From positions 8,219,501 through 8,283,500 of the forward strand of contig NC_052474.1 in the NCBI RefSeq assembly GCF_009730915.1: 64,000 nucleotides of DNA. Direction: 5' to 3'. A program made the translations under genes and the position numbers. Below the pieces are notes generated by a model. It did not search any database. It saw only the letters and a list, made by a program, of their open reading frames with translations, and was not told the DNA's origin. Positions 25,170 to 64,000 of this stretch are shown piece by piece. The DNA is from Dioscorea cayenensis subsp. rotundata (taxonomy: Eukaryota > Streptophyta > Magnoliopsida > Dioscoreales > Dioscoreaceae). Numbering within the stretch: the first letter of the stretch is position 1; each line of letters begins with the position of its first letter.

Positions 25170-25761
25170 ATATTCTAAGAGTAATGATATTTTTACCGAA
25201 TAGATTTCCCGAATAGGTTTTCCGAATGAAGTGGATGTTAAGTTGACATCCATGTCAGCATCCACGTCATTCTTTCTTTATTTTTTTTTAAAAGAAAATT
25301 TTAATTTATTTTATTATCTAAATCCTAAATTTAAACATTTAATCATAAAAATAAACATGTAAATGATAAACCGAAAATCCCTCCCTAAACCATAAACTAG
25401 AAATCACAAACCCCCGCAGGGGGTTTGTGATTTCTTGTTTAGGGTTTAGGGCATAGGATTTAGGGTCTAGGGTTTAGGGCTTAGGATTTAGGGTTTAGGG
25501 TTTAGTATTTATTATTTAGGGTTTAAAATTTAGATTTTTAGTTCATAGATTTTGTAGTATTTGGGTTTATAATTTTAGATATAGTTTTATAATTTTTTTA
25601 ATTTTAAGTATTTAAGAATTTTTAAAGTTCAAATTTAAAGTTTTTATAAAAATATATAATGACGTGGATGAGGATGTGGATGATAAGTTAGGCATCCACG
25701 TCATTCGGAAACCTATTCGTAGAATCTATTCAAGAAAAAAATAGCATCGCTCATATTCTAA
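25170..25761. mobile_element. Mutator-type MITE with 9-bp target duplication
   Basis: Element 25179-25752, flanked by the direct repeat ATATTCTAA at 25170-25178 and 25753-25761. Long inverted ends start GAGTAATGATATTTTTACCG and, from the other side, GAGCGATGCTATTTTTTTC, and continue through GAATAGATT, CGAATAGG and GTGGATG blocks for over 60 bp. The centre is a palindrome (GAAATCACAAACCCCC / GGGGGTTTGTGATTTC, about 25391-25433). One arm is rich in plant telomere-like TTTAGGG units (about 25437-25520). No coding capacity. Confidence 0.9.
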
Positions 25762-44153: not shown

Positions 44154-47096
<2,943 letters not shown>

Positions 47097-47199: not shown

Positions 47200-48239
47200 A
47201 TGTTTTTAGCTCTTTTACATATATATACCCTTTTTCAATTTTGTATGTTATACTCTCTCAAATCCGTTTTTACTTGTTTATTTGTCTATTTAAATAATTT
47301 TTTTAAAAAATATTAACTATTAATTTTTAAAATTTATCTTAAATTAATGTACTTCTATAATTTTTAATAGGGAGAATTGGTTATAAACCCCTCAAAAGTT
47401 GTTTATCTTCAGAAAAAACATAATCAGATATATATCCCCGAAAAAAATATAGGTAATCAGGATATGCCCTTATGTTGGGATTCCCAGTAATCAAACTCGA
47501 TTAATCTATGCTATAAACTCTGGATTAAACAAAAGGTCTAAAAATAACCCTCATGACAACTTAAAAAACTCTTCAAGGGTATATATGCAATGGTATAATG
47601 GTAATTATATATATTTGTTATTTGTTAATGAATAGTTTTTCAACTAATTTGAACACCAAGGTATATACGCAATTATATATATTATTCAAGGGTATGTATG
47701 CAATTAACTTTTATTTATGGGCAAATATGCAATTTCAAAATTTTTTAAGGGTACACCTGCAAAATCCTTTTTTTAATATATCATATTTAATTACATATTT
47801 TTTTAAATTATATTTTATATAAAAATAATGTTGAAAAATTAAAAAATTTAAATTGTCAACAAATTTTAATTGATTTTCTTAATCAATTATGCAATAGACA
47901 AATAAAAAAGATTGAAAGGAGTATTTATTTATATTATAGGAAAATAAATCAGGCTTATTTAATTTTTTTAATAGTTAATTTTTTAAGGTAAATATACTCT
48001 ATAAATCTTTGTTTTTGAAAATTTATTATTTTATTTTTTTCTTTCATCTTCTTTGATGGATTTATTAATAAAATGAGTTTGCATAATGCAGTTGGGGCTT
48101 TGATGGGCCTGCTCTAACTTCGGCCCATCAGGTTCATCTAGTAATATTCTACGTTACATTAACCCTGGCAAGCGGGGTGGTGTAAAATGAACGATCATAA
48201 AATGAGGGTAAATTTTTGATTTTTTAATTAATTAAATTA
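47200..48239. other. AT-rich intergenic DNA
   Basis: RAB upstream region and flank of the Mutator-like element. Nothing else recognised. Confidence 0.5.
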
Positions 48240-48966
48240 AAATTTTAAGTGGAAATTGTCAAAAAAACCCTTTAAGTTTGTAAAATTGTCAAAAACACCC
48301 CGTTAGTTTTGCAATCCCCAAAAATCCCTCCTTTTAAACTCTATGTTTTTTCAAACCCCCAAACCCTCGTATCGGATGTGAGCGGAGTGAGTTTCAAATT
48401 TTTTTGGACGAAAATGCCCTTGCATGGGGAGTCGTGGGTCTGCACCATCTCGGCGATTTGAGAGGAAGTGGGCGGTTTTCCGTAGAGGTAACCCTAGAGA
48501 GCTAATTTATTTGAGTCGTTTAATTGCTTTTTCTCAACTCACGTCTTCGACTTTTCCATTTCAGTCTGTCTCAAAGTTGTCTCTACGCGAAGCCCTCTGT
48601 AATCGACATTTCATCGACTTTTCCCTTTCCATCGGGTTTTTCTCAACTAGTTGGCATTTCATCGGTTTGAAATCTAAGGTATTGAGTATGGTTTTTATGT
48701 TAATCGCCTCATATAAAGAAAGATTTTTTTCGGTTTTGTTTTGTGCTCCTGCTTTTTGTTGGAAGATATTGAAGTCTGCAGGGGGATTTCTACTGGGGTT
48801 TTGTTAGTCTCGAGGAGATTTCTAGCTGGGGTTTTGTTTTGTTTTGCGATTTTCGTATGTATACACTATCGAATTAGTTTTTTTCGATTGTTATGATTTG
48901 TGTAATATTTATAATGTACATTTCCGTTTCGTTTGATATGGTTGCTAGCTTTTCTAAATGAGGGTT

Positions 48967-49130
48967 GACGTTTAAGAAATGAGATGTTCTGAGTTTAACA
49001 TTTGTTGTCCCTGCTTTAAGTATTCTCGTCTCTGCTTTAACAAAATGGGTCTCTGCTTTAACTTTTTATATCTCTGCTTTAATAAGCGAGAGTTTACCGC
49101 TTAAAACCTTATATTTCCGCTTAAACTTTT
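48967..49130 (+). repeat. Phased GTTTAA/CTTTAA array 1
   Basis: Motif starts at 48970, 48993, 49014, 49035, 49056, 49077, 49100 and 49120, i.e. every 20-23 bp. Four consecutive units share TSYCTGCTTTAA before variable sequence. Lies after exon 1 of the Ulp1-type gene. Confidence 0.85.
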
Positions 49131-50009
49131 GTCAATCATCGCATGTTGAATGTGTTGTTATTATCGCGAGGCTTGTGATTATGGCGGTCAACCCTAGTTA
49201 ATGGCCGATGCTATTTGACACCCGTGAGTGGAGACTTTAGTCGAATTGAAAAAAATAACATGACCCCTCGACATCGGGAGATTATTCGACTGGACACCGC
49301 TTTGCGCTGCTCATCGAGCTAGAAGCTATATACCAGAGAGAGCCCTTCTTGATTCTTTTTTTGCAAAGATACGATGGTCACACCAATAAATTCGGGGATC
49401 GGGAAAGCTCGCCGAGTTTCGAGACCTCAAGATGTGGCCCTCGTGGCTTTGGTCTGCGTTGCGATGGCGACGCGCTGGTCTTTCGGAAGAAGAAAAACCG
49501 GTCGGCGTCGAAGGGCGGTATCTATCAAAGACCTCACGAGAGCACGGAGACTCCATCAAGAGCACTGCTGCAGACTTGTTCGACGGAGGGGAGAATAAGA
49601 TAATTTCGTCAAACTCGATGGTGTACCTCATGGGGACAGATCCTCTTCCCAAATACATCATGCTCGGTTCGAGCTGGATCGTTGATTACGTCGATGATCT
49701 CACCGACCATGGGGCGATCACGCATGGGCGCAGGCGACGCACAAGTGGCTTATGGAGGATATTCCACTGCACCGCCCGAGTGCAAGATAGATGCTGCCCG
49801 GGAAGAAGACCAACACGGGAGTACATTAAGGGTTGCTCGGTCACGCTTTAACGTCCCGGTTTTACTGAGTGACCGAACAGGGGAAGAAAGTCCATTTCGC
49901 GAAGATCCCAAGGATGCTCTGTGCTACGGTGAAAGTACTTACGGGAAGCAAGCGACGGTGAGAAACGAGCTTGTCATCGCTCGATGTAAAAGAGGTAATA
50001 AATCATGGA

Positions 50010-50190
50010 CAATGTTTAACATAAGTCTTTAACGTTTAAACATTTTTATTTAGCGTTTAACTTTAGTATTTACCGTTTAACTCTTATTCAAATACTGGGT
50101 TTAAATATTTTTGTTCTCCGTTTAATTATATTCTATAACGTTTAAATATATAAACACTCTGTTTAAATATAGTTTTTTTATAGTTTAAAA
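50010..50190 (+). repeat. Phased GTTTAA array 2
   Basis: GTTTAA starts at 50014, 50034, 50055, 50075, 50099, 50120, 50140, 50161 and 50183. The sequence between motifs is AT-rich and not conserved. Sits between coding blocks, probably an intron. Confidence 0.9.
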
Positions 50191-51479
50191 TGAATGATTT
50201 CATTTGAAATTGTTTGGTTTACATATGTTAGTTTCCGAGCTGGTTCCGCAAATCTTTGAAGAAGAAATATTTGTTGGGGCCAACCGACGGATGGATGCCA
50301 TTGCTCCGGAACCACTTGCTCGAAGGCGGGATGAGAGGCGACCCTCATCGTGCGCTACTGGGACGCCGCTCTCCCTACTTCCGACCCCACCACGCGCACG
50401 CGATTCCTCGAGCCGGAGAAGCCCTCCCCTACCGCGGCGATTGCAACAACCCCCTACCACGACAACGACGGTCTCCCGAGTGTGGCGGCCACCCGACCAT
50501 GGCAGCCCTCCGACCCGTGGCGAGCCCCCACCCGGTGACATTAGGCGAAGATGTCACCGCAACTCTTATCGAGCATGCGAGATATTGATGACCGAGTTTC
50601 CTCGGCTGTCGCTCGTGTCGAGGCTCCGGAAGGAGCGTTCACGACCGGCTGCGCCATCCCTCGAAAAGAACTCGAAGCACCCGGGACTGAACGAGGCGTC
50701 GGAATTTGACGACGAGGACATCATCGGGAAGGTCGTTCCAAGGCGGCCACATTCGAAGAGACTTACGAAAAAGAGGGAGAACAATCATCGCCTCTGTCTC
50801 CAGCCGTAGCCGACGATGAAACAATAGCAACACCATCGGTGGCGATCGTCGTTGTTGAGAAGGACATCCTAGATGATGCGGCGTTGCACTGTTGAGAAGG
50901 CCGTTAACTCTCTTCTCGATGAAATCCTCGACCCGGTGGAACCGGCTGCCGAGATTGCGGCATCAAAGATGGACACAATCAATGAAGATCAAGAACAAGT
51001 TAAGGGTGTGTCTCCCAATGATGCTGTTGTCATGGCCACGGTTGAGAAGATCGTCGAATCCGTTCTCTGTAGCGCGTGGGACGTGGCCGACGATGATCGC
51101 GACCCAAGCAGGGACACAATTCCCACCACAACAAGAACCATGTAAGGATGTGTCTGCGGTTGATGCTGTCACCGTCGTCCCCGCATCGAAGCCAAACACA
51201 ATCCCACAACAAGAACGACCATTAAGGATGTGTACTGCGGTTGATCGTTTGCCGCCATCGTCCCGCGATCGAAGGAAGATCTTCTTTGAAGACCCCGACC
51301 GAGCAACGAGAGAGATGATCAAGGCCAATCAAAAATTGGACGGGGACGGCTCGGGAAAGCTTTTTATTCGAAGAAGAAGAAATGGGTTGGCTCGAGTCGT
51401 CTTAACAAATACTGAGCGAGGAGTTGATGAGGATCTTCCTCAACTGCGCTATGGACGGGTAAGTGTAAAGTTTTTATGA

Positions 51480-51656
51480 TATTGTTTAAAGGTTTTATTA
51501 TAGTGTTTAACAATTACCTAATAGTGTTTAATACCTTTATGTTATCATTTAATTTGTCTACTTAACATTTAATTATATATAATATCATGTAACAATTGAT
51601 AATATCATTTAAATATTTTTTAATATGGTCTTATTATATCCATTATCGTTTAACTT
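51480..51656 (+). repeat. Phased GTTTAA/ATTTAA array 3
   Basis: Motif starts at 51484, 51505, 51526, 51547, 51567, 51587 (ATGTAA variant), 51607 and, after a double step, 51648. Spacing 20-21 bp. Between linker and protease-like coding parts, probably an intron. Confidence 0.9.
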
Positions 51657-52520
51657 GACAGATCGTAGTGGAAGAATGAGCCATTTATACCACACGCGAC
51701 AAATTATACACGCTGCTTGAGGGAAGGAGATGGTCATCGATGATGTGATGGGACGCTTTCAGTATGCATAATACAAAAAGTCGCTGAGCAAAGAGCCATA
51801 TCCTTACAGAAGCGCGCCCATCACCGGGACCGCTTGCATCTGTTTATGTCCCAAGCTTGCCGACGCACATGACACTGATTATGGCTATGATCGGGATGTC
51901 ATGCATGAAACTGCATGAAGTTCAAATTGTCATCCTCCCGATAATCATGAATGGCCACTTCCATGTCGTCGTCCTGGACAATGATAAACAAGAATACTGG
52001 GCATTATTCTTCATGTCCGAGTACGATAAGGACGCGTTGGACATGGTAAGTTCTTTAATTATGTCCTATTAATATCTGTTTGGTATTTAAATCGCTATTC
52101 TAATCTCGACTTGCATATCTCGACGATGGAATCTATTCGACAATTGTGTCGATATGGAGTTCGGCGAGTCGGCGACGACAAAAGTACCCACTGCATGCGA
52201 CATAGAAACCCCACGCCAAAAACAAGGAAGCGTCGATCATGCCGCCTACGTCATGCGTTTTATCGAGCAATTACTTTGGGGTGAGAAGTTACGGCTCACT
52301 GCAGACGGGAGCGTTCCTTACCTCGGATACGGTATGTTACCCGCATACTTAAGGAGGGAGGCGTAGGCGTCCATGACAAAGGGGGTGCGTCACAGCGGGT
52401 TAAATTTTTGTTTTTCAAGAACATGTCCCCGTATATCCGAATGTCAATTTTATTTTTCGAATGTAAATCCGGACAAATTCAATTCATTGTTTTCGTGTTC
52501 GAAGAGCATGACTTGTATAT

Positions 52521-53030
52521 GTTAATGTAAATTTTTGTTTGTTTTTGAATTGTAAAAGCGGGTTAAATTCCATTCGGGCTTTCATTTCATTGTTTAATTT
52601 ACGTTCTAATTGTGTACATTTCACTTTCATTGTTTAAATATATTATATATCATTTAAACATCAGTTTTAAATATTTCAAAAATACGGTGTACACGCTTTA
52701 AAAATAACATCTGCTCTGCTTTAACTAAATGCATTCATTGTTTAAATAAATATGGGAAGTTGCCCATCAATAACTCGTATATCTCAATGTAAAGTTTGTT
52801 TGTTTTTCAATTGTAAAGGCGGGTTAAATTTCATTCGGCTTTCATTTCATTGTTTAATTTACGTTGTAGTTGTGTACATTTCCGTTTCATTGTTTAAATA
52901 TACCATATATCGTTTAAACATCGGTTGAAATATTTCAAATTACAGTAGTATCCGTTTAAAAATAACAATGTCTCTGTTTAAATACATTCAATTCGTTGTA
53001 AAAGAGTAAGAGTTTAAATATGGAAACAAC
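52521..53030 (+). repeat. 261-bp direct repeat pair with GTTTAA array 4
   Basis: Two copies offset by 261 bp (for example GCGGGTTAAAT at 52558 and 52819), both containing CATTTCATTGTTTAATTTACG and several GTTTAA/ATTTAA motifs. Lies 3' of the Ulp1-type gene. Confidence 0.85.
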
Positions 53031-53256
53031 TCCATCAATACACAATGTTTCCCACGTCATCGTCGACTTATTAACAATACCTAGTCGGCCACGGTTTCAT
53101 TGCAAGATCGTCGATCGTGACCGGATCCATGGCGGCGGGTCGCAATGTAACTCGCGGACATCAAACGCTTGCGACTCGATCCTCTTTCGCTCTAGGCCGC
53201 CCGTGCTACCTTCTCGCTACAGCGGTCGCGAACGAAGCTCACGATTTCCGTCCCGA

Positions 53257-54780
53257 AGGCCTGTCATCGTCGGGTATGGGGAATATAGCTTCCTTGTACG
53301 CAAGTTTGTAATTGTCGACGGTGAAGTACCCGCTAATAAATCGATGTACGTTGGTGTCATGCTCGCATTATTGCTGCGCAAGCGTGTTTGCAAGGGATAC
53401 CATAAACTTGCCACCTTCGACACGAACAAGTTCGATGGCGAGATCCACGAGAGTTGCTGCGATTGGTCGATCAGCTCGTAACGATCATCGACACAACGAC
53501 CAACACGAAGATTTCGGCCGTCCCTCAACAATGATCGCTACCTTGGAATGTATGTCCGGGCATAAGTAGGTCTCCCATTTGTTCGCTTGCTCACGCCCGG
53601 TTACATAACATGCGCATCAACTTGAACCTGGCAAATAAGGTTAAACAAAGACAGTGATGGTTAAATAATCCGTAAACATGTTTAAACATTATTGTAAATA
53701 TTTAAACGAAAGGATTAATATTTAAAGTCAGACAAGTGTAATTAAACAAAGGCCTGTGAATGTTTAAAGGGTAACACTAAATGTTAAGTGTAAACCAACA
53801 TTCGCAGACCTTATGGAGTCGACCATTTTCGTCACCGGTAAATGACGAGCTTCCTTGATCCAAGCATTGAACGACTCCGCGACGTTTGAATACATCTCAC
53901 CCCAACGATCACCTCCGAACAGATAATTCGACCAATGTGCTATATCCGATTTATTAATCAACCAGTGATGAGCTTCGGGTGATGTGGCATGCAGTTCATT
54001 CACGGTATCATCGAAATCTTTAGCCGTGGATGCCCACGCAATGCGGAAGCATATAGACCAGCACTCCTCCCTCAATGCCTTCCCAAGTCTGACATTGGCT
54101 TTCATAAAATTGGCCTTCAAATGTCGAAGACAGTATGCATGTGGTGAAGAAGGGAAGACTCTCGCAATTGCGCTCACAAGGCCCTTGGACCTGTCTGACA
54201 CGAAGGTAATTATCTCATGATAATCTCCATCCTCGTATAAGGCATCGCCTAACTTAGATATGAACCAAGTCCAATTGGCATCGGTCTCGTTGTCGACTAT
54301 ACCGAAGGCGACGTGGAAAAAACCATTGTTTCCATCTTTCCCTGTGGCACCCAGTAGTGTACCCCGATATTTTCCAAGGAGGTGGGTACCATCGAGAAAC
54401 AGCAGCGGCCTGCAAGCCCTCTTGAATCCCACAATACACGCGCTGAAAGAAAAGAATGCACGTTTAAAACGATCACCGTCTCTTTCCACGATCGCAACGC
54501 TGCCGGGATTTGTCTCAGCCACCTTATCCACATACCAAAGCAAACAGTCGTAGCTGGAGATGTCACTGCCGTCGAGGACCACCCGGGCATGCTCTTTTCC
54601 CAACCAAGCCTGCTTGTATGGTATGTGGACACCATGTTCCCGCAACATGTCCTTCTGAATGTCGATGGCCTTGTACAAGGGACGGTCCTTGAGCTTCTGA
54701 ATCACTCGTGCGCTAACCCATTTTTTGGACGCTTTCGGATGTCACTGTCGCGAGGAAGACATATTGTCATCGTTCGAATG
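53257..54780 (-). pseudogene. MURA-type Mutator transposase with SWIM zinc finger (frameshifted)
   Basis: DDE transposase that would bind and cut element ends. A 313-codon open frame (54705-53764) starts MIQKLKDRPLYKAIDIQKDM and contains the MULE catalytic core: LFLDGTHLLGKYRG (first Asp), ITFVSDRSKGL (second Asp), HAYCLRHLKANF (C/H motif) and NVAESFNAWI (Glu). It probably begins further right, where PKASKKWVSARV is legible. It stops at a probable intron containing a phased motif array (53641-53770). The continuation (about 53500-53257) has an intact SWIM zinc finger, CSCRRWQVYGIPCKHACA, then a one-base shift before DTNVHRFISGYFTVDNY. The N-terminal DNA-binding part was not found as an open frame. 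Confidence 0.85.
53638..53775 (-). repeat. Phased TTAAAC array 5 (motif inverted)
   Basis: TTAAAC-type motifs start at 53641, 53661, 53682, 53702, 53722, 53742 and 53764, 20-22 bp apart. This is the complement of the GTTTAA motif, so its orientation follows the minus-strand transposase gene. Confidence 0.9.
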
Positions 54781-54827
54781 AATGTTCTCAACTCAACATG
54801 AGTCTCTGTGTAAACGTCAAGCTTTTT

Positions 54828-55210
54828 TTATGTTTAAACGGATACATATAGTGTTTAAAATAATGGTTAACCTGCTTTAACTAAAAGTCTATATCATGTA
54901 AATAATATGTTATTGTTTAAATTGAATGCTTTCACTTTGACATCGCGTTGAAGATGGGTACCTCTCGGGTCATCTGTTTAAAACATCTTTACGTATTTTC
55001 TTAAACACCGTTGTCATTGTTTAAAGAGTAACTAGAGTATTGTTTAACTTTTTCTATTGTTTACACCGTTGTCATTGTTTAAAGAGTAACTTTTTCTTAA
55101 ACACCGTTGTCGCTGTTTAAACATATTTACGTATTTTCTATTGTTTACAATGACGTTCTTTTGTTTCCCACATTGTTTGTTTTTACTAGGTCTATGTTTA
55201 AATTTCAGAA
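54828..55210 (+). repeat. GTTTAA array 6, upstream of the transposase
   Basis: Starts at 54832, 54853, 54875 (CTTTAA), 54896 (ATGTAA) and 54915 keep the 19-22 bp step. Further irregular copies continue to about 55203, with a short duplicated block (ACACCGTTGTCATTGTTTAA). More scattered copies lie at 55400-55510 and 56190-56300. Confidence 0.8.
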
Positions 55211-55499
55211 GTTCACAGTCAAATAAGCTTGTTTCGTTTTATTTATAAAAGATTTACAACATTTACAACATTTACAACGTCCGCTCGGACTTTGGACACT
55301 CACGACTCGACCCTCGTATAACGAAACAAGTGTCTGTACATTCGAATGCTCACAGCGGTTGCATAACATGCGCATCAACTTGAACCTGCACAACGTACAA
55401 CATTAAAAAAAGGTTAAACAACACATATTCATGAAAACGACTATTAATCAATGTGTCATGGTCGGACTTAAACGAAGATCCTGATAGTTAAACACAGAA

Positions 55500-56180
55500 C
55501 GTAATAGTTGTACATTGACGTAATGTTCTTAAATGGTAACAGAAAGTCTCAAGTGATAAATATCAACCCCGTCTTAAAGGATGTTTCTCGATCTCCCTCC
55601 TCTAGAGAATCCTCCGTAATCACGAAATACGTGAAAAAAATTTCTTTTCTTACCCAAGTCGAAAATGCTCGCTTAATTGCTTGCCCGTCATCCACCATGA
55701 AGAATCCTCCGCGATTCGTGCAATTATGAGAGCATTTCGACTAAGGGCGAAAAAGATAGTTTAACTTGTTGCGTGATTGCGTGCTAAATGATTCTCAAGA
55801 TAAGGAAGAAGGTTCACGAAAACATCCTTTCGAGATAGAGTGGTTGTCCATGGGAAGAGGAGGACAAGGAGGAGGAGGAGGAGGATGATGAGGACGACGA
55901 GGAGTGGTTGTCCATGGGGAGGGTTCTTTCTGGTTATTTATGGTGTGAATTTCACAAGCGAGTCGACTCTTCATATCCGAGAAAAAGTTAAACGCACAGA
56001 TGGTCGACATCGATCGATGAGAACGAATGGGTGTTCGAAAAATTATGTTACCGTGCATAAATTTTAATGCCGTCATTAATTCTTATGCACGGGTTACCAT
56101 AACTCTTGCCACCGCCACGCCACCGCCCAGAATTCGGATCAAAGCGAAAAAGATCACCGCTTTTACGCAGAGACTTTGAG
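55500..56180. other. Right internal part of the MULE
   Basis: A purine-rich stretch of GAGGAGGA codon-like repeats (about 55855-55905) lies between two copies of GTGGTTGTCCATGGG. It could be a remnant of a transposase N-terminal exon, but I see no conserved motif. Confidence 0.35.
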
Positions 56181-56875
56181 AATTTACACGTTAATATGAA
56201 TAGTTATACATGTAAAGATAACGTTAAACGGAGATGGGAAGTATTACACGGATATGACAATTATTAAACATATTAGTAAAATATTTAAACGTTAAACCAA
56301 GCGTAAAAGCCCCTTCAAAAAGGTTGAACATGATGTGATTTGGCGCTTTCCTTTCCCACCATTTTCAGGGCCAAAAATGAGATTTCACAACATGGACCCA
56401 TTTGAAGTGAACGGTAGGGGGTAAAAGGGAAGTTAAACACTAACGGAAGGGCTGTCCGGGGTGTGCAAAAGTAGGAGGGGGTTTTTGGGAAGTTTTGAAA
56501 ATTACGAGGGGTGAACAGTAATTTTCCCAAATTTTAATGAATTAAAAAAATTAATAAATGTGGACAAGTCAGTAATCCGCAATTTTTTAATTAAGAGAAA
56601 TTTAAAACCTTAATTTTTGATGCAGGGAGAGAATCAAATATTACTCTTCTGTTATAGATTTGGTAAAAAAAGGTTTTTTTTTTCAATATAAAAACTATAT
56701 ATATGCATTAAGTTTTCTGAACGTCCGCAGAAAATGAAAAGTTAGAGAAACAAAATAAAGAGAGAGAGACAAGGAGAAAGAGTTATGCTGAAATTCAACA
56801 CTTCTGTGAGAAAGTTCGTAGATAAATTATCTATGAACACCGGCTCTCGTATATATATATATATATATGAGTGGC

Positions 56876-57145
56876 GGATAGTCTTCTATGAACGTTAATA
56901 AATAAAAATTCTACATATGTTAGTGTATTAACTATTGGATTAGTGTGACTAACAGTATAAAAATGAGATGCATAGCTTCTTGCATCACAATCGTTCCATT
57001 AGCCTTAAAAGTGATCCTTCCTCAGTGCATTGTTTATGTTGGCAGCCCTCATTCCTTATCTATCCTTGTCCCTATCTCTCTCTTCTCTTTTATTTTTCTT
57101 TCTTTGCAAACACTCTACAGACTTTCACAAATAACGTATTGTCAT
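56876..57145. mobile_element. MITE-like element related to 13203-14152
   Basis: The left end GGATAGTCTTCTATGAACG resembles the left end at 13203. The right end ACTCTACAGACTTTCACAAA resembles the sequence near 14125. The internal CAGTATAAAAATGAGATGCAT resembles the CAGTAAAAAGTGGGATGCAC block. Ends only approximate. Confidence 0.45.
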
Positions 57146-58285
57146 ATATATAAATATATAATATTTGTTTATTTTCTATAATTGGGTTATAATTTGCTTT
57201 ACACCCTTGTACAAACATCTAATTATGTAATGCTGCTGGAATATATGCTCCTACAACTCGTTTAACTATACATGTATATACATTTTTAAATAATGAACAT
57301 AAATTCCAAATTTTTAGTTTTATTTTTGAAAATTTCTATTTTAGGATCAAAATAAGCACAGCATACATAGTGGATTAATAATGCAATTTCATTTTTATTT
57401 TAAAATCAGTTTATATATATATATATATATATAATTGTGAAATTTTACCATTTAGACATTTTTTGTGAACACACCCTCATAAAATCTCATAATTATATGA
57501 ATGGCTTGCATACATTAAACAAATATAATAAAACTATAAAAAGGTTACTTGAGTTGAGTGTGAAAGGGTTATGATCTCATCATCGTCATCAAAGCCGTCT
57601 TGTTGGACTCGGTTCAATTTGGACAATGTTGAGGGTCTGAATGACACTTTCACACTGTTATCGTCCTTGCAATGTACAACCCTTTTGCTTTCTTTTCATT
57701 CACTCTTCCTTCTTTTTGTTCTTGTCATTTTCTAATTTGTTTAATTTGAACAAGAAATTGTATTTTAATGATTTTTTTATAATATAAACTCATTTTATGT
57801 TTATTAAAGAAAATTCATTTTGAATCCTCCAAATGATAAGTGATAAGGTCACTTAAAAATTTCACCTCTAATTTATAAAAATGCAATTTCAACTTACACT
57901 CATTTTCAACATTGTTTTCAAATGTTAAAAGGCAAACAGTAATGACATTAATAGATCAAGATCACACATAGCATGCAATTGAAGCAATCATATGAAATAT
58001 ATATATATATATATATATATATAAGACTCTCCACATATATAATACTAGAGAAGCTTAATTAGTCCTTGAGAAATACAACAAGATACAAGACATGGATATA
58101 ATACTAATGACAATAAAGGACCATTAAAGACCACAAAAAGAAAAACTCCATTACATCCAAGTTCTCCAATTCCCTTAAACCTGCACCATAGAAACAAAAG
58201 AAACATACATTTATGTTCATTAATTGAGAAAAATGTTATATGTCTCTCCATTGTGATAATTGAATAGAAATTAAACTTAAGGAAA
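57146..58285. other. Intergenic region downstream of the WOX gene
   Basis: AT-rich, with (TA)n runs at about 57412-57434 and 57997-58024. The last ~250 bp before 58289 would be the WOX 3'-UTR. Nothing else recognised. Confidence 0.5.
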
Positions 58286-58288
58286 TGC

Positions 58289-60112
58289 TTAGAAGATGAC
58301 CAAATAGTAGGAAGCTCCATGTTGAAGGGGTTGCAGAGTGACACCAAATTCATCGGTGAGCACTGGTTGGCCGGAGGCGTGGAGGAGGACCGCCTCCTCC
58401 CCGAACGCTTCCCGGACATTCAGCGGCCCGGCCACCACCTCGAACACCACCTCATTTATAAATACCATCAATTTATTCACCCCTCCCATTCCTATTATAT
58501 ATTAATCATCAAGAATAACATAAAAGCAAAAAACCATTAATATGATATATATTTACTTATATATATGTATGAATTACATACATATTTTTTTCTAGTTCTA
58601 GTGTATGTGTGTTAGTGCAGTGTGATTATGTGCATTATTATCCTAAAGCCATGCACACGTTCAATCTAGAAAGAAGTACTACACCTGCTTTAATGGAAGA
58701 CTTAAGAGAAAGTCATTTCAGCAGAGTGGAGGTAAGAAAAGTAAAAAACCCTAGAATCTCAGTGACAAGACAACACAACACAGCAAGTTAGGGTTTCTCC
58801 ATTGATCCATCTCTTCAATCATAGGTGACACTGTTACCCCCTTAACTCTCTGGTTTTTCTTGGCTCTTTTTGAACAATTTCAGTCATTCAAGTGCCAACC
58901 AAGTGTGTGTTCATCTCCCAACATAGACCAAAGATAGAAGACAACACTAACACCAAAATGACAAGACATGAGTACATAGATAGAATGACAGATTGATAGA
59001 TAATATAAACATGATAGACAAGATATAAAAGCACATAAAACAAATAATATATTATTATTTTAACAATAATAATAATAATTATTATTATTCACATACCTTG
59101 TAACTCATTGACATGACTAGTAATAGTATTATTTGCAGTGTTTGTGTTTGTGGTCATCTCAGTGACATCCATAGCACCAGCACCAGCACCAGCTTTTGCA
59201 TTCTCTTGTGAGATAAGATCACTCCAGAGGCCATTCTCCGGAGCAGAGACAACACCCATGAGATCAGAGAAGTAGTATCCCTGCGGTGGTGGTGCTGGGA
59301 AGAAGAAATGCTCACCGGAGAGCTCAGTGTGAGTAGTAGTGCCATGTATCAATGTCTGGTTCACTGATGGTGTAGGTGAAGCTGACAATTCAATGATGGA
59401 ATTTACCATTGAAGTTGGTGGTGGAGGAGTTTTATCTGAACCACCTGATGATCGGTCGGAAGATGATGAAGAAGATGAAGAAGGATCAAAAGCTTTGATT
59501 GCATGACTAGTGTTAGTAATAGCATTAGTAGTGATGGTTGTGGTGTTAGAGCGAGGTGAGCGGCCGGCGAGCTGACGTTGCTTGTGTTTGCTCCGAGACT
59601 TGCGGTTCTGAAACCAATAAAAGACATTGGCGTCGCCGACCTGACCGTACTCCTGAAGCTGAGCTCTTATCCGGCGAATCTCATCTCTGGGAGGATTCAC
59701 CATGCCTGAGTTGAAGATTGCTTCCAAGATCCTGATTTGCTCCGGTTTAGGGTTCCATCTTGGTTTTGGCTCCGGAGTTCTCTCATCATTTACTGAACCT
59801 GCCATGAATAATATGAATTCTCCATTCCATTTTTTTTTCTTTTTAAAAAAAAAAACAAAAACCCTAACCCTAACCTTAACCCTAAAATGAAGTGCAGAAA
59901 GAAAGATACAGACCATAAAGATAAAGATAAAGATAAAGATAATAATGTAGCAATGATGAAGAAGAATAGATACCAGCAGAAGAGAAGGGAGGTTTCTGGC
60001 AGGAGCTTGAAAGGAGAGAAGAAGAGTGGTTGATGTCAGATTGCCATTGGTGGTGAGTGTTGCAAGGTTTGGACTTGAACAAGCTAGGCCAGTGCCTGTT
60101 GGATGAGGCCAT
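58289..60112 (-). CDS. WOX9: WUSCHEL-related homeobox transcription factor, WOX8/9 (STIMPY) type
   Basis: DNA-binding regulator of early embryo and meristem growth. Three exons: 59974-60112, 59097-59798 and 58289-58491, joining to 347 residues. N-terminus [17 protein letters not shown] is the WOX8/9 signature. The WOX homeodomain follows in exon 2 (from [17 protein letters not shown] through [17 protein letters not shown]), including the NPPRDEI loop typical of WOX proteins. A Ser/Thr/Asn-rich middle follows. The last exon carries the conserved C-terminal block FINEVVFEV ... [12 protein letters not shown] ... [19 protein letters not shown]. No breaks. WOX11/12 share the C-terminal block but not this N-terminus. 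Telobox-like and GA repeats lie in intron 1 and upstream. Confidence 0.95.
59862..59886 (-). promoter_or_regulatory. Telobox cluster in WOX9 intron 1
   Basis: AACCCTAACCCTAACC followed by TTAACCCTAAAA, i.e. consecutive AAACCCTAA-type teloboxes inside the first intron. In Arabidopsis, teloboxes and GA repeats help recruit Polycomb PRC2; a similar role here is inference. Confidence 0.7.
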
Positions 60113-60393
60113 GATGATGTTGTTGATGATGATGATGCTGCTGCTGCTGCTTCTTTTGTTTAGAGGAAAGCAAGGCTTTTTCTTTTCAGAAATTAACCCT
60201 TACTGATCTTTTCTCTCTCTCCCGGCCCCTCTGTGTATATATATATATATATATATCTCTTTCTTTATAATCTATCAACCTGTCTGTCTAGATATCAATT
60301 ATATATATATATAGGGATGTGCAATAGGGTTTCAATTCAACAACCACTGTATTCAATCATTCAATGGAAAAACACCATTAAAAACAAAGAGAG

Positions 60394-60915
60394 AAGAAGG
60401 AAAGGAAGGAAAGAAAGAAAGAAAGAAAGAAAGAAAGAGATGATGATGGACCTTGACAGAGTATGCATTAAAGATCAAGTGGAGAAGGCCACTACTGAAA
60501 GTACACTGGAATTCCCTCGTATGCCAAGCAAAACAGACAAGGAAAGAGCCTTCTGCTGGGGCCTTATTAGTAGTACTCTCTCCATCACTGCAAGGAAAGG
60601 TGGTGAGCTTTTCAGAGTGATGGAGATGTGGTTTCAGAGATAGAGTGAGAGATATAAGAAGATGACTTTTTTGATATCTATCTATCTTTCTATCTATCTT
60701 AGACTTGAAGAAGGAGAGAGAGAGAGAGAAAGAGCATTAATGAAGGGATATTTAGTGAGGGATTATTCTAATGGAAGGAGGTTGTTGCAGAAGAGTAAAT
60801 GTTGTGAGGTTTTGAAAGTCAAGAATGGCACGAAAACAGGATTTGATTGGAAAATGGTGAAGTGAGAGAATGAGATAACTATGACACAGAGAGAGAGAGA
60901 GAGAGAGAGAGAGTG
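60394..60915 (+). promoter_or_regulatory. GA/GAAA tracts upstream of WOX9
   Basis: A (GAAA)n tract at about 60412-60437 and (GA)n tracts at about 60713-60732 and 60889-60913 lie 0.3-0.8 kb upstream of the WOX9 ATG, within the likely promoter/5' leader. (TA)n runs sit at 60236-60255. Open frames on plus here are simple-sequence artefacts. Confidence 0.65.
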
Positions 60916-60999
60916 AGGAGTTATGGCTTTGCTTTTGGGGTTATTTCGGGCATGGTGAGGTGTGGCTTGGTTTGGATTGACTCGAGGGCCCTTTTTTTT

Positions 61000-63440
61000 T
61001 CTTCTAATTATTAGAATTTTTTTAATTCTAATTATAAATATTGATTTTTCACTATATATAATTGTTTAAAATGGCTTGACTTTTTTTATTTTTGTTTTTT
61101 ATAAGTTTTGAACTCATCCCTTTTATTAAGAATTATAATCTCTAAATCAGTCCGTGACTAGATATTAAGAATAATATGAAAAATAAATCTTTCTTGATAA
61201 GTGTTTTTCTTTTTATATTAAAATGTTTACATTTAAACTACTTATTTAAATACCACAAGCTTCTATCATTTAAATTAGTATAGTTTTATTTATTTTTATT
61301 TAAAATATGATAAAAATGTATAATTATTTTATTTTTTATTTAATAAAATGTCTACTCATAAGTGTTAGTGTGCGTGTGTATATATATGTGAGTAAATATA
61401 TTTAATGCATGGAAAGGTGTTAATTGTGGTATAATTCGTATTAATTGTTATTAATTGTTGGTGGTAAATGAACTCCATTCAAATTTAGAAACTTAAGTAT
61501 TATTTATTTATTTATTTATGAGAAATGTGAACAAACTAGAGGTGGGATTGGAATCCTTGATCTCTAAATTAGGAGGAGCAGGAATTAAATATATACCATT
61601 ACCTTATTGCAGATGTAGTAATTATTTTAGTTAATTAATATATGGTTATGTGCAAATGTTTCTATAATACTTAATAGGAAAGCAAAGTATTTATATTTTA
61701 ATTTATAATTGGTTAATATGATGTAACAAAAATACTAAAAAAAGTATTAAAAGCACTGGTTTGTGTAGAAAATGATTGAAATTAACCTTATAAATATACA
61801 AGGAGGGTCTTTTCATAGGATGTCATTTAAATTGGTCAAATCGTATATACACTAATTCATAGGATTTCATTAAAACCTGTGAAAATTCTCATGATCTATA
61901 TATGTATATAATAAAGAAAAGTTGTGAATGAAAATGGAACTATACAAGTGTACTTATTGTTAGACATGAGGCCTATGTGGGCAAAAAGGTATGGTTTCCA
62001 ACTTCCAAGAAAATGGAGCTTTTTTTCTGATCCATTAAAGTGAAGACAAGACTTTTTGACCAAAAAAATCTCAAACATTTTCAAACCAATTGGGTTGCAT
62101 TTTTGGGGATTATTCATTTATTTGAGTTAAACCCCTAATCCATTTAATCATGTATAACTTTTTGCCATCTTTACAAAAAAGGGTGAAAAAGAGCCTTTTT
62201 CTTATACTAAATTTTTCAAAAGCATGATATCATTATTATTATTATTTTAAGTAATTGAAAGTTAAACTTATAGAGCAATATAGTATATATAGCATAACAA
62301 TTCTAATTATGATCCAAGTTCTTGTAATGGCTAATATATAGATATATGTGTATATACATATGTATATTTATGTATATCTATATATTTGGTATACTTTTTT
62401 TCAAAAAAATAATAGCCACATGCATTAAAAAAGTAAGAGAATACAACTACAAACAAACAACAAACTAGTTCAGAGAGAGAGAGCAACAAATCGAGAAAAA
62501 TAACAAAAAAAAAGACAACAAAGGTGAATTATTTATAATATTTGGTATAATTTTGTGTGGGTGATTGATGAAATATATAATATGAAGTGTAATTCATAAA
62601 AATGAATTTATGAATAACCAGAGTGAAATGGAAGAAAGACTAGAGAATCAAGCAAAGAACACACATGAGGTGAATATATAATGCATGAATGCATTGATTT
62701 GTCTTCTCATCCGCACATGCTTGATGTGAGATAAGATGCCAAAATATAGGTTTCAATTTATTGTATATTTATTGTTACGAATAAATTACACAACAATTTT
62801 ATGACCACCTTAAAGATTAAAAAAAAACATGAATCAAATTAATGCCACTACCTATATAATTAGAGGACATACAAATTCAATTATCTTATAGCAATACGGT
62901 TAATAATTATATTATAAATTAATGAAAAAAAATTTGACTCCTTGGTGTGAACTAACACTAACTCATTAATTAGAAATAATGTCAAATGATAAATCTTGCC
63001 ACATTTTTAGCACTGAGAATCAGTAAATAAACTAGAGATTGCCCTGACACCACCTACATCTCATTAATATGGAAAAGATCATTTTAGTTAATTACATTGA
63101 GTTGCAGCCTTGCAGTATATATACTATTTAAGCAATCACGTACATACATGCACACCCACTACTATTCACAAACAGTAAAAGAAAACAAAGAAAGACATGC
63201 AGAATAAGAAGAGGAAAAAGAGTAGAATATTAATAAGAGTTAATCCCTATATATACATCAAAATCTCATAACTTCTGTGTTTGGTGGTGTGTCTTTAATT
63301 AATGATATATATATATATATTGGTTGCATATATATATATATATATATATATGGTTCATATCAAGTTCAACATTTATATGACTGCTCATATATAAATATAT
63401 GTGAGTTAGGTAAAGGTTTATTCAATATTCTTTATATCTG
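61000..63440. other. AT-rich intergenic DNA
   Basis: No gene recognised. A SINE-like fragment with a GATTGGAATCCTTGATC box-B-like complement is possible at about 61520-61610. Confidence 0.5.
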
Positions 63441-63459
63441 CCATAAATAAAAAAATATA

Positions 63460-63462
<3 letters not shown>

Positions 63463-63527
<65 letters not shown>
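63463..63527. repeat. (TA)n microsatellite
   Basis: About 32 TA units, preceded by shorter (TA)n runs at 63306-63351. A frame of alternating Tyr/Ile across it is meaningless. Confidence 0.95.
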
Positions 63528-63533
<6 letters not shown>

Positions 63534-63755
63534 GATAGTAAAGGCATAAAGTAGACATGTGGAGAGAGTTGAGGGTGAAGCGGGATAAGCGGGTGCAGGT
63601 GCTGTTGCTGTGTATAACTGGACTGCATGCATGCATGCAACGTTAGCCAACACACATGCACCAAACATGCCCTGCTTCAATGCACCCACATGACCACCAA
63701 AATTATTTATATATATATGATGCATCTAATTAATTCAATACCTTGAATACTATGA

Positions 63756-63757
<2 letters not shown>

Positions 63758-63791
<34 letters not shown>
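63758..63791 (+). repeat. (GA)n microsatellite near the right edge
   Basis: About 16 GA units. A short (ATGC)n run sits at 63624-63638. The rest of 63528-64000 holds nothing I can assign. Confidence 0.85.
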
Positions 63792-63793
<2 letters not shown>

Positions 63794-64000
63794 TGGTTAA
63801 TTAATTATCTAAATATATACAGTGGCACAGAAATCATTGGGGGAAGAATATAAGGAGAGATGTGGGTTGTTTTGGATGCTTGTTTTTTTAATTAATTCAT
63901 CATGTGTTTGTGTCTGTATGTGTGTTTAAGTCCTTCATGCTCCTGGTTTTGATGTTGAGGTTATATCAGTTTAGTTAATTTACTTTTGTGAGATCTAGTT

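Follow-up and report, generated by a model that had tools for sequence, protein, structure and literature searches.

Does a transposable element of a monocot carry, in its own non-coding DNA, the target sites of a protein that shields it from silencing? The question arises from 64,000 nt of DNA of the yam Dioscorea cayenensis subsp. rotundata, a monocot (NC_052474.1:8,219,501-8,283,500; the whole stretch is called the window here), in which a Mutator-like element (MULE) repeats the hexamer GTTTAA at regular steps. The original prediction, made from the letters of the window, was that these repeats, together with a gene of the same element that has a DUF1985-like region, form a sequence-specific anti-silencing or transposase-binding system. 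The parts of this proposal that sequence can test agreed with the results described below, with either of the two proteins of the element as candidate reader of the arrays. At a probability of about two in three, we consider that yam has a sequence-specific anti-silencing system of the VANC type, in which the DUF1985/PMD-Ulp1 protein of the second gene of the element (gene 2) would read the GTTTAA arrays and counteract silencing.

Phased GTTTAA arrays in the window copy

The element, at 48249..56528 of the window, contains 38 GTTTAA sites (4.58/kb), compared with 0.73/kb in positions 1-48000 and 0.54/kb in 56600-64000. When the variants CTTTAA and ATTTAA were included, the pair distances of [GCA]TTTAA in the element peaked at 20 bp (8) and 21 bp (12), and again at 40-44 and 60-65 bp. 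We defined a chain as a run of at least three members spaced 19-24 bp apart on either strand, counting GTTTAA and its variants. The chains held 36 members, while 500 block shuffles averaged 0.07 and never exceeded 7. They were confined to six non-coding segments, which bears out the claim of phased arrays in at least six such segments, and a seventh segment was sparser. No chain was found in the rest of the window (1-48000 and 56601-64000), again as predicted. Most chains depended on the variants: counting exact GTTTAA alone left the window copy with one chain of nine members and one of three. The element was covered by 134 windows of 240 bp, of which 3 contained a hexamer having at least four phased pairs; of the 929 such windows outside it, none did. 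A degenerate, chromosome-internal telomere-like TTTAGGG stretch at 25430-25530 gave both of the outside 240-bp windows that reached three phased pairs.

In the 5' leader of gene 2 (48970..49082, plus strand), two GTTTAA are followed by four CTTTAA at steps of 21-23 bp. Intron 1 of gene 2 (49995..50231, plus strand; boundaries by eye) has nine GTTTAA at 50014-50188, at steps of 20-24 bp; these correspond to the first example of the prediction (50014 to 50183), in which all nine positions were exact. The second example, in intron 2 (51459..51661, plus strand), stood at six of seven positions: 51484, 51505 and 51526 are GTTTAA and 51547, 51567 and 51607 are ATTTAA, but 51587 is ATGTAA, which is none of the variants that had been named. 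The GTTTAA/ATTTAA array of this intron extends over 51484-51612, with another GTTTAA at 51648. The intergenic array (52592..53017) has GTTTAA on the plus strand, with a chain at 52696-52745. In the intron of the transposase gene (53641..53769, minus strand), the plus strand reads TTAAAC, which is GTTTAA in the sense of the transposase, and the array upstream of the transposase (54832..55201) has GTTTAA mostly on the plus strand, plus four TTAAAC. The seventh segment, at the right end (55414..56438, minus strand), has sparse TTAAAC with a step of 20 at 55468/55488 and of 21 at 56264/56285, and no chain of three.

The arrays recur across the family

Dioscorin, the storage protein of yams (Dioscorin 5 of PDB 4twl as query), matched the genome of the window at up to 92-94% in single exons, with clusters on contigs 14 and 801, in accordance with a Dioscorea host. 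A search of this genome with the transposase gave 40 scored matches at 95-100%, from 1920 first-look candidates. Eighteen further stretches of 8.7-10 kb and the window copy made up a set of 19 copies, some of them incomplete (L039, for example, is without its left half). More self-pairs at 19-23 bp were formed by GTTTAA than by any other hexamer (288 pairs, with presence in 19/19 copies), and its pair-distance peaks recurred in the pooled copies at 40-43, 60-65, 80-84 and 100-103 bp. The best period was 20.4 bp, and 267 chain steps averaged 20.64 bp (standard deviation, 0.81), in line with the predicted step of about two helical turns. Phased small interfering RNA registers (21 or 24 nt) were set aside as the source of the period because the period is 20.4 bp.

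Segment borders were set by us on the window copy and transferred to the 19 copies through one alignment. On the plus strand, GTTTAA occurred at 25.5 per kb in the leader, 31.4 in intron 1, 26.1 in intron 2 and 14.2 in the intergenic DNA; in the transposase intron, whose gene is on the minus strand, GTTTAA in the sense of that gene reached 19.3 per kb. The exons had 0-0.73 per kb, and composition alone predicts 0.2-1.0 per kb. The comparison of coding with non-coding DNA among collected relatives, which had been proposed as a check, thus gave 14-31 per kb in leader, introns and intergenic DNA against 0-0.73 per kb in exons on the sense strand. Dense arrays of one orientation were nearly confined to non-coding DNA, with mixed orientation upstream of the transposase. 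Thirty shorter loci around the transposase were added, nine of them from copies already counted; 28 of the 30 had at least three phased pairs. Relatives lacking phased motifs, or similar phasing in unrelated DNA, had been named as grounds for giving up the prediction; close relatives carry the arrays, and the other DNA of the window is without chains.

Exact GTTTAA was kept at orthologous places in 9650 of 12889 cases (74.9%), compared with 64281 of 122844 (52.3%) for control hexamers matched to it in GC content and segment, cells with gaps being left out. The mean column identity was 0.892 for the motif and 0.859 for the controls. Several one-mismatch forms lay in phase with intact sites (in phase versus out of phase, ATTTAA 135/12, GCTTAA 28/0 and GGTTAA 28/0), as would be expected of decayed sites. 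The commonest form, ATTTAA, loses the sole G:C pair of the motif, which would fit deamination of methylated cytosine.

The bases between the motifs had been described as not conserved. This holds for intron 1, where the spacers differ, but the spacers of the 5' leader, and some of those in intron 2, do repeat; the number of units in intron 2 differs between copies. These repeating spacers suggest that tandem duplication has enlarged some of the arrays and that their units change in concert, a behaviour also described for VANDAL21 (PMC5735166). Leader units have TCTCTGTTTAA in five of nine copies compared; in the window copy and in L046, several units jointly have CTGCTTTAA or GCTTAA. Such differences between leader units possibly represent a motif switch within the family. 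Within 48970-49082 of the leader, several units read CTGCTTTAA in the window copy, CTTTAA/GCTTAA in L046 and CTGTTTAA in five of the nine copies.

The element and its two genes

That the element is a MULE, as predicted, was established by its minus strand, which encodes a Mutator transposase (PF10551, 1e-20 in the window copy). The main exon of the transposase lies at 53805..54741 on the minus strand, with its 5' part missing in the window copy; a frame scan of copy L045 gave DBD_Tnp_Mut (1.2e-20) plus the MULE domain. The element is flanked on both sides by the 9-bp sequence AAATTTTAA (48240..48248 and 56529..56537), a target-site duplication of the length of VANDAL-type MULEs that was seen in the window copy only and, being AT-rich, could have arisen by chance. 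The BLAST starts of copies reaching the left end fall mostly at 48226-48251, and on the right side the matches of other copies stop by 56290. An ungapped search found no terminal inverted repeat joining the element ends among the longest 25 of 37 inverted pairs, in agreement with the absent or degenerate terminal inverted repeats of VANDAL-type MULEs; one 30-nt AT-rich inverted pair (70%) lies in the flanks and spans the target-site duplications. The window copy lacks, at 54739-54745, about 1 kb that most other long copies have.

Gene 2 and the transposase are on opposite strands. Exon 1 of gene 2 (49181..49994, plus strand; boundaries by eye) is broken in the window copy and matches PMD and DUF1985 in better copies. 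Exon 2 (50232..51458, plus strand), also broken in the window copy, is a linker without a Pfam domain and has 1 GTTTAA in the 19 copies. Exons 3-4 (51662..52375, plus strand) encode a Ulp1/C48-like end. The DC pair of Ulp1 proteases was found by eye in 15 of the 19 copies; the window copy has DH. The exon-4 peptide of L042 matched Peptidase_C48 (PF02902) with 23.7 bits (cut-off, 20.7), and the exon-3 peptide of L045 had no Pfam match. A Ulp1 accessory gene opposite the transposase is the arrangement of KIU-type VANDALs.

The DUF1985-like gene of the prediction was recovered through the better copies; the window copy's own gene 2 frames had no Pfam match, DUF1985 included. Exon 1 matched PMD (PF10536) with 41.7, 40.7 and 41.5 bits in better copies (cut-off, 34.9). 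For DUF1985 (PF09331; cut-off, 35.1 bits), matches of the genome search were assigned to copies by position and strand. Four family copies were above the cut-off (L035, 36.8; L048, 36.1; L047, 36.0; L012, 36.9 bits) and two below it (L034, 34.8; L038, 32.5 bits), and frame scans, run on L032 (29.6 bits), L045 (24.8 bits) and L038, stayed under it as well, at 24.8-30.8 bits overall. A DUF1985 match at C18:18386849, near the copy of L019, was dropped because its strand does not fit. DUF287, a feature of VANC21-type genes, was absent from the Pfam scans of exon-1 proteins from six copies and exon-2 proteins from two. When the PDB was searched by sequence with the exon-1 protein, two chains at E 0.15 came up and no relative; a crystal structure of VANC21, mentioned as unpublished (PMC8756742), was therefore not reached in this way.

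Naive pN/pS ratios, taken over all copy pairs including decayed ones, were 0.39 for the transposase and 0.48, 0.75, 0.31 and 0.54 for exons 1 to 4 of gene 2, which suggests past coding constraint, weak in exon 2. The BLAST identity between copies was 89-96% for transposase pieces and mostly 80-87% for gene 2 pieces, which makes gene 2 the faster-evolving partner. In the 584-Mb genome, the exon-1 family had 6218 first-look candidates, of which 132 were scored at 75-100% identity, and several of its frames were without stops (267-313 aa); the PMD/DUF1985 exon family is large and perhaps recently active.

Two other observations were made at this locus. A piece of the exon/intron border of the transposase (about 53590-53630) recurs at about 55341-55389 in the right terminal region, as seen in the BLAST matches of L019 and L030. 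About 1.2 kb to the left of the MULE, a coding exon of a small GTPase (Rab-like; about 46796-47000, minus strand) was recognized by eye only.

A changed word in a paralogous gene

Two paralogous loci from the DUF1985 list, known from 1.6 kb and one copy each, were compared with the family. L049 is 49% identical to L032 (DUF1985, 36.9 bits) and has an intron at the same place, as judged by eye. L050 is 47% identical (DUF1985, 41.7 bits), and intron 1 is present in it too. In intron 1 of L050, TGTGTA (once TGTATA) recurs at steps of 20, 20, 20, 21, 21 and 20 bp (G000:C6:6803181-6803308, minus strand), and 0 of 2000 dinucleotide shuffles had a phased hexamer as strong. The non-coding parts of L050 are without GTTTAA, and its two GTTTAA sit in an exon. 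Thus neither of the two paralogues has GTTTAA in non-coding DNA, and one of them has a changed word with an unchanged period and place, while the other is unphased. The missing GTTTAA in both and the other phased word in one are what a system of VANC and target predicts. The word GTATC in L049 (5 observed versus 0.9 expected; nominal P = 0.001) was not accepted because it is the best of a few hundred 5-mers, its P value is uncorrected, and it is unphased.

Weighing the explanations

Several of the results weigh against a VANC-type system read by gene 2. The window copy is decayed, with about 1 kb lost and its plus-strand gene broken. The motif is of mixed orientation or sparse upstream of the transposase (5.8/4.1 per kb on the plus and minus strands, in a segment that in most copies includes the approximately 1 kb that the window copy lacks) and at the right end (1.2/4.1 per kb). 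The retention comparisons share history among related copies and are not independent, and the same applies to the pN/pS figures. Some one-mismatch forms are unphased (in phase versus out of phase, GTTGAA 5 and 4, GATTAA 1 and 3.5). Two of the 30 short loci (L019 and L030) had fewer than three phased pairs; both derive from copies missing parts of the element. L030 and L038 are one copy, and its longer stretch, L038, has 12 phased pairs. L019 was rejected as a subfamily with another motif, as its transposase runs straight into exon 2, with no intergenic part and no exons 3-4. In L049, the 5' end and intron 1 have no phased hexamer (P = 0.63) and no GTTTAA, so that locus either has no phasing or has it more weakly or in another part. 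The TGTGTA array is known from a single copy, and the 1.6 kb known of each of L049 and L050 does not show a location inside a MULE or a Ulp1 part. Finally, the transposase could be the reader of the arrays in place of the gene 2 protein.

This last possibility is the main rival. The arrays would bind the element's own MULE transposase through its DBD_Tnp_Mut/zinc-finger part and aid transposition or self-regulation. The strong DNA-binding domain of the transposase, the presence of the arrays in copies with that transposase, and the TTAAAC of the right terminal segment (4.1/kb) speak for it. The distribution of the motif makes it less likely, because the left terminal 690 bp has 1 GTTTAA and 8 TTAAAC in the 19 copies together and the mid-element introns are densest. 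The arrays also cover introns of both genes, and the transposase is not the faster-evolving of the two partners. We consider the transposase an unlikely reader. The repeated spacers suggest another explanation, a neutral minisatellite in which units of 20-21 bp were duplicated and decayed with no protein reader. Spacers are indeed shared among units of the leader and intron 2, and the nine copies compared differ in their number of such units. In intron 1, however, the spacers differ while nine motifs and steps of about 20 bp persist. Retention of the motif also exceeds that of the spacers, near-miss motifs lie in phase, and separate arrays have the same hexamer and phase in two orientations. 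A neutral origin is improbable on this evidence.

The arrays of the introns follow the sense strand of their gene, as they might if a host transcription or splicing factor read the motif and the element exploited that factor. The intergenic and upstream arrays, which are partly antisense to the transposase, argue against such a factor, as does the difference in word between paralogous genes of one genome, and we give this explanation little credence. Very little speaks for a structural role in which phased A/T tracts would curve the DNA or position nucleosomes with no sequence-specific reader, the least probable of these alternatives. The step of about two helical turns and the TTTAA-rich motif would suit it, but the leading G is strongly preferred (288 phased pairs for GTTTAA versus 37 for ATTTAA), chains are missing from the other AT-rich DNA of the window, and a paralogous gene has TGTGTA instead.

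A VANC-type system would work as follows. The GTTTAA arrays are the putative binding sites for the gene 2 protein of the same element. Sites 20-21 bp apart would lie on one face of the helix, so that several protein molecules could load side by side and cooperate. A lone hexamer elsewhere in the genome would be insufficient, with density and phase supplying specificity. The bound protein may then counteract DNA methylation and silencing of its own element family, as VANC does for VANDAL elements. The arrays would expand by tandem duplication and be maintained by selection, and motif and protein would change together between families.

Comparison with known systems

This kind of anti-silencing system is itself already published, from Arabidopsis. 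In the sources available, VANDAL21/VANC21 and VANDAL6/VANC6 share with the yam element a MULE without clear terminal inverted repeats and with a DUF1985 accessory gene (PMC5735166, PMC10398659). Dense arrays of short motifs in one orientation in introns, intergenic and terminal non-coding DNA and turnover of tandem repeats are further likenesses, and related families with different motifs may be another. The motifs are different, YAGTATTAY for VANC21 and, as predicted targets, AGTTGTCC and AGTTGTAC for VANC6 (PMC5735166, PMC10398659). The yam element also differs in having a Ulp1 end, no DUF287 match and a monocot host. VANC21 has been demonstrated to bind and to hypomethylate (PMC5735166, PMC10398659), whereas gene 2 of yam is known from its sequence alone.

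Gene 2 also resembles the VANC genes with a Ulp1 domain (KIU) of some VANDALs, which according to a 2026 review act on specific motifs of KIU-carrying VANDALs (PMC13317346). Like these KIU (Kaonashi)-type VANDALs, the yam element has a Ulp1 domain in its accessory gene and possibly family-specific motifs; unlike them, it resides in a Dioscorea genome, in which the words are GTTTAA and, in a paralogous gene, TGTGTA. In the same source, the Ulp1 capture is dated to the separation of monocots and eudicots, and the precise role of the domain is called unknown (PMC13317346). A Ulp1 gene opposite mudrA is also the arrangement of KI-MULEs (PMC2528002). ULP1-carrying MULEs have been reported from melon, grapevine and the monocot rice, so this type of gene has a precedent in a monocot; the available part of that paper mentions neither phased motif arrays nor anti-silencing for them (PMC2528002). 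In a survey of MULEs, 'PMD and/or DUF' was found in half of the VANDAL members (PMC6446971).

TnpA of Spm binds subterminal repeats. For the transposon proteins TnpA (Spm/En) and MURA (MuDR), a link to demethylation of the element that encodes them has been described (PMC10398659). MURA is a transposase and acts on terminal inverted repeats; in yam the internal introns and the leader are densest in motifs.

The specificity of VANC proteins is reportedly set by sequence, density and helical periodicity of the motifs, with an origin in eudicots, according to Sasaki et al. (EMBO J, 2022), whose title is said to include 'in eudicots' in one citation and to lack it in another. Among the titles and abstracts listed, we found none reporting such a system for VANC in monocots or for Dioscorea with Ulp1, Mutator-like or GTTTAA. 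What yam contributes beyond the published examples is the hexamer GTTTAA itself, the occurrence of phased arrays in a monocot, and a single case in which the word differs while the period stays the same.

We tentatively suggest, as less than an even chance, that monocots have had their own radiation of VANC-type systems, in which each DUF1985 family of one yam genome would have a private hexamer (GTTTAA, TGTGTA), the two-turn phase being fixed and the word changeable. The Ulp1 part may, in this reading, be an array-guided SUMO protease that removes SUMO from silencing proteins. If so, the origin of these systems would lie before or near the monocot-eudicot split, or horizontal transfer would have occurred. 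In the literature consulted, as far as its available parts go, sequence-specific transposon anti-silencing has been worked out in Arabidopsis only. A yam family with words that differ between paralogues would offer an independent test of the co-evolution of protein and target and of the role of the Ulp1 domain, and a hexamer phased at 20-21 bp in the introns of DUF1985 genes may serve as a simple signature by which such systems could be located and their target word suggested.

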